A stretch of DNA of 64,000 bases, taken from Eggerthellaceae bacterium. Lineage in GTDB: Bacteria; Actinomycetota; Coriobacteriia; Coriobacteriales; Eggerthellaceae. Below the pieces are notes generated by a model. It was not told the DNA's origin and made no database searches. It was given only the letters and a program-made list of their open reading frames with translations. A program made the position numbers and the translations under genes. Where the stretch lies: the NCBI GenBank assembly GCA_910575165.1, contig CAJTDS010000002.1:248001-312000 (forward strand). Direction: 5' to 3'. This document shows, piece after piece, positions 46,613 through 54,023 of the stretch; the first letter of the stretch is position 1; each line of letters starts with the position of its first letter.

Positions 46613-46925
46613 GGCTCTCCTCCTTTCCAACCCGCGCCTTCCCAGCACGGGGAATAGAGTGGGGCGACCGATGCGTAGCCACCGCTATTGGATAGATTCG
46701 GGGGATTATACCGTTTGCTGAGTCGTTAACCGTGTGATGTCTCGAAAGTTCACGGGCCAGAAACGAATATTGGCCCCGAAGGGTGTGCAAATTTACGTGA
46801 ATGGCGTCAAGCCGGCCGCCTGGGGAAGGGGATTTCGTATACTGAAACGAAGCAGAGTCGTTTTCCATCGCGCTCGCATCCCGGGGCCGCTCCGGCTGGC
46901 GAAGCGTTCGGACAGGAGGGCAATC
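46613..46925. other. 313-bp divergent intergenic region
   Basis: Separates the leftward permease and rightward murT-gatD genes. A GTATACT-like -10 lies near 46838 and an AT-rich patch near 46708-46712, but no strong -35/-10 pair was found. GACAGGAGGG at 46911-46920 is the ribosome-binding site of the fusion gene. Confidence 0.55.
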
Positions 46926-49196
46926 ATGGGCATCCGTCACGGGGCCGCCAAGGCTGCGGGAGCCGTTTCCACCTGGGGGCTGAAGCACGTGTTCCACCGG
47001 CCGGCGGCCAACTTCCCCGGCAAGGTCGGCCTGTATGCCGACCCGCAGCTCATCGCTCACGAGCGGGGGAAGCTCTCACGTGGCAGCATCGTGGTGGTGG
47101 GCACCAACGGCAAGACCACGGTGACCAACCTTCTGGCCGATACGCTTGAGCAGGCCGGATGTACGGTGGTGTGCAACCGCACCGGGGCGAACCTGGACTC
47201 GGGCATCGCAACGGCGCTGCTGCACGCGGGCCGGGCCGACTGGGGCGTGTTTGAGAGCGACGAGCTGTGGTTGGCGAAGTCGCTGCCCCAGCTGCAGGCG
47301 CGCTACGTGGTGCTGCTGAACCTGTTCCGTGACCAGCTGGACCGCTGCGGCGAGATCGATCGCATCCAGGATGCCATCGTGGGGGCCTTGGGGCGCTCCC
47401 CCGAAAGCGTGCTCGTCTACAACGCTGACGACCCCTTGTGCGCCGCCATCGCCGATCGGGCGCCCAACCGCTGCGTGTCCTTCGGTGTGGCCCGCTCCAT
47501 GGGGCTTGCCCAGAACAGCGTGTCCGACGCCACCATGTGCCAGCGCTGCTCCACCATGTTCCGCTACGAGTTTCGCCAGTACGGGCAGCTGGGGGAGTAC
47601 GTGTGCCCGAACTGCGGGTTCTCCCGCCCGCCGCTGGACTATGCCGCCGTCGACGTTGCTCTCGGCGCCGTAGGGCTGTCGTTTTCCGTGGAAGAGCGCG
47701 GGGATGGCGCTTCTTCGGCCGGCGTGGCCGCTGAGCCCCTTTCGGCGCCGTTTTCCGGGGCCTACATGGTGTACAACCTGCTGGCCGTGGCCGTCGCGGC
47801 CCACCTTGCGGGCGCTTCGGCGGCCGATGTGCAGCGTGCCGTCGACGCCTTCGATCCGAAGAACGGTCGCTTGCAGGAGTTTACCGTGGGGGGGCGCCGG
47901 GTGCTGCTGAACCTGGCGAAGAACCCCACGGGCTTCAACCAGAACCTCAAGATCGTGGCGGGAGACCCGAACCCAAAGGTGGTGGGGCTGTTCATCAACG
48001 ATAAGGAAGCCGACGGGCACGACGTGTCGTGGCTGTGGGACATCGACTTCGAGGAGCTGGCCCACAGCGGCAGCCTGAGCGTGTTCGCCGGAGGGCTGCG
48101 CGGCCGCGACATGCAGGTGCGCTTGAAGTACGCGGACATCCCCTCGCGGGTGGTGGAAACCCCCGAGTCCATGCTAGAGGCCCTGGCAGCCTTTCCGACC
48201 TCGGTGAACGCGTACTTGATCGCGAACTACACGGCGCTTCCCGCCTGCAAGGCGGCTTTGGAGCGGGCGCAGGAAGAAGCAGGTGCCAAGGGTGCCGAGG
48301 TCGGGCGTGCCGGCGCTTCGGCGTTCCCGGACGGCGCGATGGGCCCGTGCTCGACGGAGCCGAGCGGGCATGCGGGCGAAACCGCGTCCGATGGCGGCGA
48401 AACGCATCCCGGCGAGGTGCCGCCCTCCGATGCGTTGCCGCTGGTCATCTTCCACATGCTTCCCGATCTGCTGAACCTCTACGGCGACGGGGGCAACGTG
48501 CGTATCCTGGAGCGACGGCTTGCCTGGCGCGGCATCCCCGTGGAGGTGCGTCGCATCATGCACGGCGATCCTGCGTCCTTCGACGAGGCCGACCTGGTGG
48601 TGATGGGGGGCAGCCCCGACCGCGAGCAGGAGCTGGCCAGTGCCGACGTGCGCGCCATGGCCGACGATCTGCGGAGCTACGTGGAGGCCGGCGGCCCGCT
48701 TCTGGCCATCTGCGGCAGCTACCAGATGCTGGGCCACGAATGGCTGCTGGACGGCCAGCAGGTGCCGGGCCTGGGCATTCTGGATGCGAGCACCCGCCGT
48801 CCCGGCACGTCCGCCGACCGTCTCACCAACAACATAGCCTTAAGCGTGCCCGGCATCGACGAGCCGGTAATCGGCTACGAGAACCATGCCGGCCGTACGT
48901 ACCTGGGCGAGGGCGTGCGCCCGTTCGGCTCGGTGATAGGCAGCGTGGGCTGCGGCAACAGCGAGCAGTCCAAATCCGACGGCGTCCGTTACAAAAACGT
49001 GGTCGGCACCTACCTGCACGGCCCGCTGCTGGCGAAGAATCCCCAGGTGGCAGATGATTTGCTGAAGCTGGCGCTGGAGCGTCACGCCCGCCGGACGGGC
49101 TGCGATCTGGACACGCTCGCCCCCTTGGACGATTCCCAGGAGCTTGATGCCAACCGCGCGCTGGCTCAGCGCTTGGGCGTCAAGGGGCAGCGATGA
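46926..49196 (+). CDS. murT/gatD: Single-chain lipid II isoglutaminyl synthase: MurT-GatD fusion
   Basis: A 756-residue fusion of the two subunits that amidate the D-Glu of lipid II to D-isoglutamine. The MurT part (about 1-450) has the Mur-ligase P-loop VVVGTNGKTTVTN (about 56), the four-Cys zinc ribbon CQRCSTMFRYEF with YVCPNCG (about 205-231), and a C-terminal DUF1727-like region (LNLAKNPTGFNQNL). A Gly/Ala/Pro/Glu-rich linker follows (about 450-504). The GatD part (505-756) has the glutamine-amidotransferase nucleophile ICGSYQMLG (Cys about 596) and the His in YLHGPLLA (about 698). In well-studied Gram-positives these are two genes of one operon. rsmI starts within its stop codon (ATGA overlap). 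Confidence 0.93.
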   Translation: MGIRHGAAKAAGAVSTWGLKHVFHRPAANFPGKVGLYADPQLIAHERGKLSRGSIVVVGTNGKTTVTNLLADTLEQAGCTVVCNRTGANLDSGIATALLHAGRADWGVFESDELWLAKSLPQLQARYVVLLNLFRDQLDRCGEIDRIQDAIVGALGRSPESVLVYNADDPLCAAIADRAPNRCVSFGVARSMGLAQNSVSDATMCQRCSTMFRYEFRQYGQLGEYVCPNCGFSRPPLDYAAVDVALGAVGLSFSVEERGDGASSAGVAAEPLSAPFSGAYMVYNLLAVAVAAHLAGASAADVQRAVDAFDPKNGRLQEFTVGGRRVLLNLAKNPTGFNQNLKIVAGDPNPKVVGLFINDKEADGHDVSWLWDIDFEELAHSGSLSVFAGGLRGRDMQVRLKYADIPSRVVETPESMLEALAAFPTSVNAYLIANYTALPACKAALERAQEEAGAKGAEVGRAGASAFPDGAMGPCSTEPSGHAGETASDGGETHPGEVPPSDALPLVIFHMLPDLLNLYGDGGNVRILERRLAWRGIPVEVRRIMHGDPASFDEADLVVMGGSPDREQELASADVRAMADDLRSYVEAGGPLLAICGSYQMLGHEWLLDGQQVPGLGILDASTRRPGTSADRLTNNIALSVPGIDEPVIGYENHAGRTYLGEGVRPFGSVIGSVGCGNSEQSKSDGVRYKNVVGTYLHGPLLAKNPQVADDLLKLALERHARRTGCDLDTLAPLDDSQELDANRALAQRLGVKGQR

Positions 49197-50128
49197 GCGG
49201 CAGCGCGCAAGGGGCCACGAACGCGGTGCCGGATGACGGGACGGGCGCCGGCCGCCTGGTGGTGTGCCCCACGCCCTTGGGAAACCTGGGGGACATGACC
49301 GCGCGATCCCGCGATGCCCTGGCAGCGGCCGACGTGGTATGCGCCGAGGATACCCGCGTGACCGGTAAACTGCTTGCGGCCCTGGGCATCAAGAACAAGC
49401 TCGAGCGGCTGGACGAAGCCACCATGCGCCAGCGGGCGGAGGGCCTGGTGGAGCGCATGGCGTCCGGCCAGGTGGTGGCTTACTGCTCCGATGCGGGCAT
49501 GCCCGGCGTGTCCGACCCCGGCATGCACCTGGTCAGGCTGGCGCGGGCCGCGGGCGTGGCCGTAGAGGTGCTGCCCGGCCCCACCGCCGCCGCCACGGCC
49601 TACGTGGCCAGCGGCACCGAGTTCGCCCGGTTCTTCTTCGGCGGCTTCTTTCCCCGCAAGCGCGGTGAGCAGCAGGCGCTGCTGGACAGCGTGGCATCGC
49701 TTGACGCGGCACTTATCTTCTACGAGAGTCCGAACCGCCTGGTGGAGGCCCTGGCCGTGCTGGCCGAGCGCTTCCCTTGCCGGGAGGCCTGCGTATGCCG
49801 TGAGCTCACGAAGGTCCACGAGGAAGTGGTCCGCGACACGCTGCCCCGGCTAGCAGCCCTGTTCGCCGAGCGAGCGCGCGCGTTTGAGACGGGCGAGCCG
49901 GGGGCTGCGGGCATCAAGGGCGAGATAGTGCTGGTGGTAGACGGCCCTAGCGAGTGCGAGGCTCAGGCGGCAAAGGAGCGTTCCCTGGCCAGCGCCGAAG
50001 ACCGTGTCCGGCAGCTGCTCGCCCAAGGCGTGCGATCCAAAGACGCCGCCCGGCAGCTGTCCCAAGAATTCGGCATCCCCAAAAACGACGCCTACCAGCT
50101 GGTTCTGGAGGCCGGGCGAAACAATTAG
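49193..50128 (+). CDS. rsmI: 16S rRNA (cytidine1402-2'-O)-methyltransferase
   Basis: A 311-residue tetrapyrrole-methylase-fold enzyme that 2'-O-methylates C1402 of 16S rRNA using S-adenosylmethionine. Family signatures are VVCPTPLGNLGDMTARSRDAL, CAEDTRVTGKLLAALGI, YCSDAGMPGVSDPG, and VLPGPTAAATAYVASG; FFGGFFPRKRGEQQ is also conserved. The C-terminal helical extension (about 270-311) resembles a winged-helix tail. Its ATG overlaps the murT-gatD stop, so the two are translationally coupled. Confidence 0.95.
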   Translation: MSGSAQGATNAVPDDGTGAGRLVVCPTPLGNLGDMTARSRDALAAADVVCAEDTRVTGKLLAALGIKNKLERLDEATMRQRAEGLVERMASGQVVAYCSDAGMPGVSDPGMHLVRLARAAGVAVEVLPGPTAAATAYVASGTEFARFFFGGFFPRKRGEQQALLDSVASLDAALIFYESPNRLVEALAVLAERFPCREACVCRELTKVHEEVVRDTLPRLAALFAERARAFETGEPGAAGIKGEIVLVVDGPSECEAQAAKERSLASAEDRVRQLLAQGVRSKDAARQLSQEFGIPKNDAYQLVLEAGRNN

Positions 50129-50903: not shown

Positions 50904-52226
50904 CTAGATCAAGGCCATGGCGGCGCTTGTGCGGTTGTACCACTCCTGCCAGTTGGGCGGGCAGTACTTCTGGGCGCCCGCTTCGGTGATGGTGTAGCCG
51001 TAGCCCGCGGCCAAGCCGGCCACATGGGCGCGGATGGCCTCGTCCCAGCTGCCCCAGCTGGCCGAACCCCAACCCCAGGCGTTGTAGGGGAGGAAGCACG
51101 CCGCGCCGCGGGAGCTTTCCGTATTGGCGATAGCGGGGGAGAAGCGCGGGTCAACGCCGTAGTCCCAAGCCGCCTCTGCGAAGATGGTGCCGGTGCCGGC
51201 CATGGGGGAGCCGGCCATGAACGCGTCGATGCGCGGGGCCCAGGTGCTTACGAAGGCTTCCTTGTCTGTGCTCCAGTCGGCGCCGTCGCTGCCCGGCCCG
51301 CCCACGGTGTCGTCGGGGGTCTCCTCGGACGGTCCCGTGCTGTCCACGGGCGCATCGGGGATTTCCGCGTCGGAGCCGTTGCCCTCCTCGGTCTCGTCGG
51401 CCGGTTCGTTGCTGCCCTCTTCCTGGGCTTTGCGGTCGGCCTCCTCCTGAGCGACGCGTTCCGCCTCGGCTGCGGCCCGGCGCTCGGCTTCCAGGCATGC
51501 GGCTTCTGCGGCTGCCTGGCGCTCGGCCTCCTCCTGGGCGCGACGCTGGGCCTCCTGGCGGGCTGCCTGGGCTGCGGCTAGCGTCTCCTGGGCGCTAGCC
51601 TGCTCGACCAGCGCGTCGGCGCGGTCCTGGGCTAGCTGGGCCTGGGTGTCGTCAAGCTGCTGCTTCATCTCGCGCAGCTTCGCCACGGTGTCCAGATGAC
51701 GCTGCTGTATATGGGTGACGTACTGGAAGTTCACGATGAAGTCGGCGAAGTTGTCGGCGTTGAGCAGCAGCTCTATGAGGCTGGTGGATTGGTACTGCAT
51801 CTTATACAGTTCGCGCACCGCGTCGGCGCTGCGCTGCAGCTGGGTGGGAATCTGGTTGTACAGGGTGGACAGCTGCTCCTCGTTCTCGGCGATGCGCGCT
51901 TCGATTTCGGAAACCCGGGCGTTTGCCTCGTTCAGCGCGGCTCCGGTGGCCTCTATCTGGGCGGTGAGCTCGTCCATCTCGTCAGTGAGGGCGGCGGTGG
52001 GGTCGCTTCCCAGCGAGCTGGTTTCCTGAACACTGTCGTCGGCAAACGCCGCCAGGGGGAACGCCGAAGCAGCTACGAGCGCGAAGGAGAGCAGAAAGGA
52101 GAACAGAACTGCGCCTGCTTTCGCCGAGGCGCCGCCTTGGCGAGGGGACGAACCGGCCGCGAAAAGGCCGCGGCGTGCGGTATGGGTCCTGCAGTTCAGC
52201 AATCGCTCATCCTTGTTCGGGAACAT
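50904..52226 (-). CDS. Secreted coiled-coil protein with a C-terminal muralytic-type domain
   Basis: A 440-residue exported protein. After a basic N-terminus and signal region (AGAVLFSFLLSFALVAASAFPLAAFA), a PcsB-like coiled coil spans about 75-255 and becomes an Ala/Glu/Arg-rich helix (AAQAARQEAQRRAQEEAERQ). A Pro/Asp/Glu-rich linker (about 255-320) leads to a lysozyme-like domain with DPRFSPAIANTESSRG (likely catalytic Glu in NTES) and AWGWGSASWGSWDEAIRAH. It would act at the cell wall, perhaps in division. A paralogue is encoded next (52342-53760). Confidence 0.88.
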   Translation of the reverse strand: MFPNKDERLLNCRTHTARRGLFAAGSSPRQGGASAKAGAVLFSFLLSFALVAASAFPLAAFADDSVQETSSLGSDPTAALTDEMDELTAQIEATGAALNEANARVSEIEARIAENEEQLSTLYNQIPTQLQRSADAVRELYKMQYQSTSLIELLLNADNFADFIVNFQYVTHIQQRHLDTVAKLREMKQQLDDTQAQLAQDRADALVEQASAQETLAAAQAARQEAQRRAQEEAERQAAAEAACLEAERRAAAEAERVAQEEADRKAQEEGSNEPADETEEGNGSDAEIPDAPVDSTGPSEETPDDTVGGPGSDGADWSTDKEAFVSTWAPRIDAFMAGSPMAGTGTIFAEAAWDYGVDPRFSPAIANTESSRGAACFLPYNAWGWGSASWGSWDEAIRAHVAGLAAGYGYTITEAGAQKYCPPNWQEWYNRTSAAMALI

Positions 52227-52341: not shown

Positions 52342-53760
52342 CTATGCGTCTTCCGTGTCGCCTCCTTCTTCCTCGACCCAGATCTTCTCCATCTGCTCGC
52401 AGGTGTTGCGGTACCACTTGATCCAGTTGGGCGGGCAGTACTTGCGGGCCAGGTAGGGGGTGATGGTGTAGCCGTAGCCTTTCGAGAGCCCCTTCACGTG
52501 GGCGTCGATGGCCTCCTCCCAGCTGTCCCAGTCGTTCTGCCCCCAGCCCCAGGCGTTGTGGTTGCGGAAGCAGTAGCGGCCCTTGGAGCTCTCCGTGTTG
52601 GAGATGGCGGGCGACCAGCGCGGGTCCACGCCGTAGTTCCAGGCGGCGGTGGCGAAGGCTTTGCCCTGTCCTGCCAGGGGGGAGCCTTCCAGGTAGGCGT
52701 CGATGCGCTCGGTCCAGGTTTCGATGAAGGCGTCGCGGCCCACGGACCAGTCGGCTCCGTCGCGGCCCACCACCTCGAAGGTGCCCGAGGGCTCGGGGGT
52801 GGGGTCGTCGTCGCGGGCCTGGCGGCTGGCGCGCTCGTCGATCTCCTCCTGTTCCTTGCGGGCGGCCTCAGCAGCCTCCTCGTCGTCGCCTTCCATGATG
52901 CGCTTGCGCTCCTCGGCCTCCTCGGCGGCTTTCCTGTCCGCCTCTTCGGCCAGCTCGGTGACCTCTTCGCACACCTTTTCGGCCTTCTCGTAGGCGTCGT
53001 CCTGCATCTTGCGCCGGGCTTCCTGGGCCTCCTCCAGCGCTTCTTCGGCCTCCTCGCGGGTCTTCTGCGCCGCGGCCTGCACGTCGTAGGCGGTCAGCTG
53101 CTCGTCCGCAAGCGCCGCCTGGTCCGCCTCCAAGCTCTCGCGGATGCGCTGGGCCTGCTGCTGCAGGTCTACCAGGCGGTCGATCTCGGCCTGGTTGTGG
53201 TCCTGGATGTTCTGCAGGTACTGCAGGTTCAAAAGCAGGCTGCCCAGGTTCTCGGCGTTCAGGATGAGGTCGATGACGCCCTGGCCGTCCTGCTGCATCT
53301 TGTACAGGGTGCGCACGGCTTCGGCGCAGCGTTGCCGCTGCACGGGGATGCGCTCTTCAAGGCGCGCCAGTTCCTGCTGGTTGGCGTCGATGCGCTCCTG
53401 CAGGCTGTCGATGCGCGCCTCCACGTCGGCTATGCGCACGCCGGCGTCGCTTACGGCCCCCTCGGCGCGCTCGAAGGCGTCCCAGGTCTGCTCGATGGCT
53501 ATGGTGAGCGGGTCGGCGTCCTCGGGGGCGCTGGTGTCGGGGTTGCTGCCGGTATGGGGGGCGTCGGGGTCGTTCGGGTCGGTCAGGACCGTGGCGCTGT
53601 CGCCCGAGGCGCTGTCGGCTTCCGCGGCGAGCGCCCGCTCGGCCAGCAGGGACGCGCCCGACGCAGAGCACAAGAGCAGGGCGGCCAGGGCGAAGGTAGC
53701 GGTTCGGCTTGCGCGGTGCAAGGCCGATTGCTCGTTCTGGAAAGCGTTTTCGCTGCTCAT
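52342..53760 (-). CDS. Secreted coiled-coil protein with a C-terminal muralytic-type domain (paralogue)
   Basis: A 472-residue paralogue of the preceding protein with the same architecture: signal peptide (TFALAALLLCSASGASLLAERALA), long coiled coil (about 85-320, including RIADVEARIDSLQERIDANQQ and Glu/Ala/Arg-rich helices), Asp/Glu-rich linker, and the C-terminal domain with DPRWSPAISNTESSKG and AWGWGQNDWDSWEEAIDAH. The start at 53760 follows CAGAGGGGAGG. It is 115 bp upstream of its paralogue; the gap holds a TATAAT for the downstream gene. Confidence 0.9.
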   Translation of the reverse strand: MSSENAFQNEQSALHRASRTATFALAALLLCSASGASLLAERALAAEADSASGDSATVLTDPNDPDAPHTGSNPDTSAPEDADPLTIAIEQTWDAFERAEGAVSDAGVRIADVEARIDSLQERIDANQQELARLEERIPVQRQRCAEAVRTLYKMQQDGQGVIDLILNAENLGSLLLNLQYLQNIQDHNQAEIDRLVDLQQQAQRIRESLEADQAALADEQLTAYDVQAAAQKTREEAEEALEEAQEARRKMQDDAYEKAEKVCEEVTELAEEADRKAAEEAEERKRIMEGDDEEAAEAARKEQEEIDERASRQARDDDPTPEPSGTFEVVGRDGADWSVGRDAFIETWTERIDAYLEGSPLAGQGKAFATAAWNYGVDPRWSPAISNTESSKGRYCFRNHNAWGWGQNDWDSWEEAIDAHVKGLSKGYGYTITPYLARKYCPPNWIKWYRNTCEQMEKIWVEEEGGDTEDA

Positions 53761-54023
53761 GCTCCTCCCCTCTGCTGTTCCGTTCGCCGCATTCGGAAAG
53801 TGCGACCCGACCTTTCCTCCCGAAAGCCCGTAGCCGGCCTTTCGGCTCTCTCGCCGCCAGGCGGGCTGGAAGAAGCGCATTATACGCTGCCGAAAGGAAA
53901 AACGCACGGCCGCCACACAAATCCTTGCTCGGGCACATCGAGGCTCGTGATAGAATCAACGATTACCGTTTTCAAGGCGGCCCCGTGTCATCGGCGGGGT
54001 GCGCCCGACACAAGGAGATGCCC

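Follow-up and report, generated by a model that had tools for sequence, protein, structure and literature searches.

A fused murT-gatD gene, predicted to encode a single-chain lipid II isoglutaminyl synthase, is the normal state in its family of Coriobacteriia

The window analyzed here is a 64,000-nucleotide stretch from an Eggerthellaceae bacterium (GCA_910575165.1, contig CAJTDS010000002.1, positions 248,001 to 312,000). Within it, positions 46926 to 49196 of the forward strand form a single uninterrupted open reading frame of 756 codons, with an ATG start and no internal stops, that encodes a MurT half followed by a GatD half. The features of this gene and of its downstream neighbor are as follows.

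46914 to 46919, +: Shine-Dalgarno sequence AGGAGG, 6 nt 5' of the ATG (direct reading)
46926 to 49196, +: fused murT-gatD gene, 756 amino acids; predicted single-chain lipid II isoglutaminyl synthase
47094 to 47501, +: Mur ligase middle domain, residues 57 to 192 (Pfam PF08245 Mur_ligase_M, 48.4 bits)
Residues 59 to 65, +, inside the Mur ligase middle domain: P-loop GTNGKTT, with K63 present in 64/64 canonical fused rows
47538 to 47615, +: zinc ribbon Cys205/208/227/230, conserved (alignment to S. aureus and S. pneumoniae MurT)
47913 to 48239, +: MurT C-terminal domain, residues 330 to 438 (Pfam PF08353 MurT_C, formerly DUF1727, 105.3 bits)
48021 to 48023, +: Asp366, equivalent of S. aureus MurT D349 and third member of the intersubunit triad (alignment; numbering from PMC6113224)
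48270 to 48440, +: linker, residues 449 to 505 (57 amino acids), disordered and poorly conserved in length (AlphaFold pLDDT; relatives)
48447 to 49040, +: GatD class I glutamine amidotransferase domain, residues 508 to 705 (Pfam PF07685 GATase_3, 127.9 bits; PDB GatD chains, Z 28 to 31)
48711 to 48713, +: catalytic Cys596, S. aureus GatD C94 (alignment)
49017 to 49019, +: catalytic His698, S. aureus GatD H189 (alignment)
49193 to 50128, +: rsmI, 16S rRNA 2'-O-methyltransferase family (Pfam TP_methylase and RsmI_C); a neighbor, outside the system

The stop codon of murT-gatD overlaps the start of rsmI as ATGA (49193 to 49196), and an earlier note on this DNA had read this as coupling of the two genes. 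The overlap itself is confirmed, but at the other loci inspected the gene is not followed by rsmI, and no RsmI homologue was found beside murT-gatD at any other locus with enough flank. Functional coupling was therefore rejected, and the overlap is best taken as a local accident of gene order without a functional message. Farther downstream on the reverse strand, 50904 to 52226 and 52342 to 53916 are adjoining paralogues that read as secreted, signal-peptide-bearing, coiled-coil, glucosaminidase-like proteins.

The earlier note had proposed from the letters alone that both halves are complete, and the domain and PDB matches bore this out. Mur_ligase_M, MurT_C, and GATase_3 all scored above their Pfam curated cutoffs in the 756-amino-acid protein, and in a search of PDB sequences residues 27 to 449 matched MurT chains and residues 504 to 750 matched GatD chains. 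The NCBIfam equivalogs for MurT (NF045635 and NF052464, 220.8 and 203.9 bits against cutoffs of 800 and 800) and GatD (NF045636 and NF052463, 156.1 and 178.8 bits against cutoffs of 400 and 450) were the best-matching families, though their narrow cutoffs were not reached. The reference system is the MurT/GatD of S. aureus, S. pneumoniae, and S. pyogenes (PDB 6GS2/6H5E/7Q8E, 6FQB, and 9SQ9/9SQJ). Aligned with the S. aureus and S. pneumoniae proteins, as the earlier note had suggested, the window protein has the P-loop lysine, all four zinc ribbon cysteines, Asp366, Cys596, and His698. The equivalents of the last three were found in 64/64, 61/64, and 63/64 canonical fused rows, respectively, and each in 80/80 canonical split rows. 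In S. aureus, the MurT D349N mutant is inactive (PMC6113224).

Next, we considered the predicted structure. AlphaFold2, run on ten fused relatives, gave a pLDDT of 84 and a pTM of 0.83, and pLDDT values below 50 were limited to linker residues 456 to 500 and two short loops. In Foldseek, MurT chains from 6H5E and 9SQ9 ranked at the top, together with GatD chain 5N9M. VIA-align gave Z scores of about 30 (28 to 31) for the MurT half and for the GatD half; these scores are silent on docking. The pTM suggests that the two halves are held in a fixed mutual arrangement, and from it we infer that they may dock as in the crystal complexes.

The window protein thus resembles the S. aureus, S. pneumoniae, and S. 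pyogenes MurT/GatD in its domains, murT-then-gatD order, P-loop, Cys4 ribbon, Cys/His pair, MurT aspartate, and fold. It differs in that those enzymes consist of two polypeptides, as the earlier note had rightly stated for Staphylococcus and Streptococcus, whereas in the window protein a linker of about 57 amino acids joins both halves in a single chain. Could such a homologue act on an acceptor other than the D-Glu of lipid II? Identity to the characterised enzymes is only about 27 to 38%, and related MurT-type proteins with altered active sites occur in Coriobacteriia. Against this, every active-site residue checked agrees with the characterised enzymes, and the fused protein groups in the tree with ordinary actinobacterial murT-gatD operons, so we consider a different acceptor very improbable.

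Because the murT and gatD genes of split relatives often overlap by a few nucleotides in another frame, a small indel from assembly or sequencing could mimic a fusion, as the earlier note had cautioned. However, the same continuous frame, with linkers of varying length, is present in 48 genomes from 29 genera of the window's family, complete genomes included, and 78 of the 80 named loci from GTDB genomes are fused. The two split loci are both labeled Slackia (L267, S. isoflavoniconvertens, and L270). The nearest relatives (G012, 70% identical; G268, with a linker of 110 residues; and G276, with a linker of 44) share this frame, as do all the other genomes of the genus that we examined. A frameshift artifact is thus ruled out by many independent genomes and retains next to no probability; the fusion is confirmed as real, neither chance nor an assembly slip. 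No second murT or gatD was found in the bacterium's own genome, where PF08353 has one match; with a single murT-gatD copy, separate subunits are not encoded there.

The accessible part of Figueiredo et al. (2012; PMC3267633) already mentions "merged" murT/gatD open reading frames in Actinobacteria, with three cases of fused frames in the legend to Fig. S1. These have the same architecture in an actinobacterium, as a bioinformatic observation, and that part of the paper gives no species names for them and carries neither a characterization nor an evolutionary analysis. In the accessible part of a 2018 distribution survey (PMC6085368), murT/gatD is described only as an operon. The literature that we searched, including that on Eggerthella and Collinsella, yielded no characterised natural MurT-GatD fusion and no biochemistry on any fused form. 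As far as these sources go, the phenomenon is known since 2012 and uncharacterised, and the window gene is a further case; the possibility of a prior report, also raised in the earlier note, thus held for the observation itself and not for a characterised enzyme. What is new here is that the fusion is the family norm, that it is recurrent, and that independent initiation of GatD has been lost.

The linker lies where the earlier note had placed it. It is rich in Ala, Gly, Glu, Ser, and Pro, as are the linkers of fused relatives (about 29 to 110 residues). Linker length changes very fast between close relatives: L148 (G276) and L149 (G268) have near-identical halves, with end branches of about 0.01, and linkers of 44 and 110 residues. 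A disordered and variable linker of this kind looks like a protease target, and a TTG codon in frame at about residue 504 might act as a weak start. The fused chain might therefore be only a precursor from which linker proteolysis or internal initiation frees GatD, with a heterodimer as the working enzyme. On the side of proteolysis, no conserved motif, including a protease motif, was visible in the aligned linkers. On the side of initiation, a start with a Shine-Dalgarno sequence just before the GatD core was present in 65/81 split genes but in 9/107 fused genes, which is below the control value of 17% for random positions inside the MurT domains of fused genes. Such starts are thus depleted, which implies that independent GatD initiation has been lost; dual products via an internal start are disfavored, and fused genes are unlikely to yield a separate GatD by translation. 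We regard the precursor reading as unlikely overall, and the linker as a probable tether.

Taken together, these results make it highly probable that the gene product is a lipid II isoglutaminyl synthase made as a single chain, in which the GatD glutaminase supplies ammonia to MurT and the linker is a tether. For the reaction and its substrate, for the passage of ammonia, and for the linker as a tether, we infer the following. The C-terminal GatD module would hydrolyze L-glutamine by means of Cys596 and His698, with Asp366 of the MurT module completing the glutaminase site. The ammonia would then cross an intramolecular interface to the N-terminal MurT module, which would use ATP to convert the alpha-carboxyl of D-Glu2 in the lipid-linked peptidoglycan precursor into an acyl phosphate and then into D-isoglutamine. 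The linker of about 57 residues would be only a tether that fixes a 1:1 stoichiometry, and the catalytic interface would be the same as in the two-subunit enzyme.

The single-chain synthase has a parallel among glutamine amidotransferases. Yeast HIS7 naturally unites in one chain the counterparts of the bacterial subunits HisH and HisF. Like the window protein, it joins a class I glutaminase to an ammonia-using synthase, and the corresponding subunits are separate in bacteria. Unlike the window protein, it has an unrelated synthase half and carries its glutaminase at the N terminus. Structures of this imidazole glycerol phosphate synthase (PDB 1JVN and 1OX4 to 1OX6) were matched in a structure comparison. 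The earlier note had also expected a covalent enzyme to ease ammonia channelling, for which we found no support beyond plausibility. The two-subunit MurT/GatD is already a stable bi-enzyme complex (PMC3266927), and an ammonia channel has been proposed for it in the accessible part of PMC6085368. The likely effect of the fusion is therefore to fix stoichiometry rather than to create channelling.

A survey of Coriobacteriia, another suggestion of the earlier note, revealed that fused and split forms alternate across the class. Judged by matches to named contigs, the window's family (f1) takes in Eggerthella, Gordonibacter, Adlercreutzia, Paraeggerthella, Enteroscipio, Senegalimassilia, and others, and the 48 fused genomes stand beside 5 split genomes from 2 genera. 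Thus, the fusion is the normal state in this family and not peculiar to one genome. Ten sampled genomes of the family had no MurT_C match (G004, G039, G122, G134, G167, G189, G222, G258, G264, and G284); this suggests repeated loss of MurT/GatD in the family, with some of the ten cases possibly being assembly gaps. Beyond f1, the class has fusions in f3 (genera g44, g46, and g54), in f2 genus g42, in two genomes of f2 genus g58, and in f5. About 20 further genera of f2 have the split form, in which the murT stop and the gatD start lie close together or overlap, as is usual. Outside Coriobacteriia, our check covered Actinomycetota, at the listed matches whose frame could hold both halves: in the 396-genome phylum sample, no fusion was found among listed matches with an open frame of at least 690 amino acids, all of which were fetched and all of which were split.

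To place these changes on a phylogeny, we used a 153-row tree, which requires at least six switches between fused and split, and a careful 48-row tree, which requires at least four. An AU test rejected a single clade formed by the main f1 fused clade and the f3 plus g42 fused clade (P = 0.0035), and with it a single fused clade by simple descent. Parsimony gives these changes no direction, and the trees would fit either a minimum of three fusions, plus one fission, or a single old fusion and several later fissions. In genus g16, fission is likely because its two genomes (G155 and G654) are split yet nested among fused relatives (support 97/97), the MurT of one of them keeps a linker-like tail, and both have their own GatD starts. 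The fullest scenario for Coriobacteriia, to which we give about even weight, would comprise at least three independent fusions (in the main Eggerthellaceae clade, in f3 plus g42, and in the two g58 genomes), at least one re-splitting (in g16), and a further fusion in a divergent, glutaminase-dead paralogue.

That paralogue is a MurT/GatD-like pair found in some f3 and f2 genomes without a canonical pair, on a branch of length 1.64 with full support. It is fused at L185:454-2706, L187:319-2811, and L182:394-2712 and split at L177, L178, L179, L186, L188, and L190. Its MurT half keeps the P-loop and zinc ribbon and has Tyr or Phe in place of the S. aureus D349 equivalent; its GatD half has lost both the catalytic Cys and the catalytic His and is still predicted to fold like GatD (pLDDT, 87.6; top matches, 5N9M and 6H5E). 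According to the accessible part of PMC6085368, free ammonia replaces glutamine in S. aureus only with GatD present. By analogy with this requirement, a dead GatD could conceivably serve as a scaffold, and the divergent pair may be a ligase that depends on ammonia or uses another amine, its GatD half being a pseudo-glutaminase. Separately, three fused proteins of canonical type in the window's family, L144 (a second copy in G218), L140 (G257), and L142 (G267), have Asp or Gly in place of the GatD Cys; G218 also has an intact fused MurT-GatD.

The fused MurT-GatD is a variant of a known enzyme and no new kind of system. As a single gene, it is a handy reagent for structural, kinetic, and inhibitor work on lipid II amidation, which has been put forward as an antibacterial target. 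Muramyl dipeptide, sensed by the host via NOD2, contains D-isoglutamine, and the enzyme therefore has a bearing on the way gut Coriobacteriia are perceived. The recurrent switching between fused and split forms offers natural pairs for testing covalent coupling against ammonia transfer. If the scenario of repeated fusion and re-splitting is true, Coriobacteriia would serve as a natural experiment for asking if covalent coupling makes a difference to ammonia transfer in lipid II amidation.
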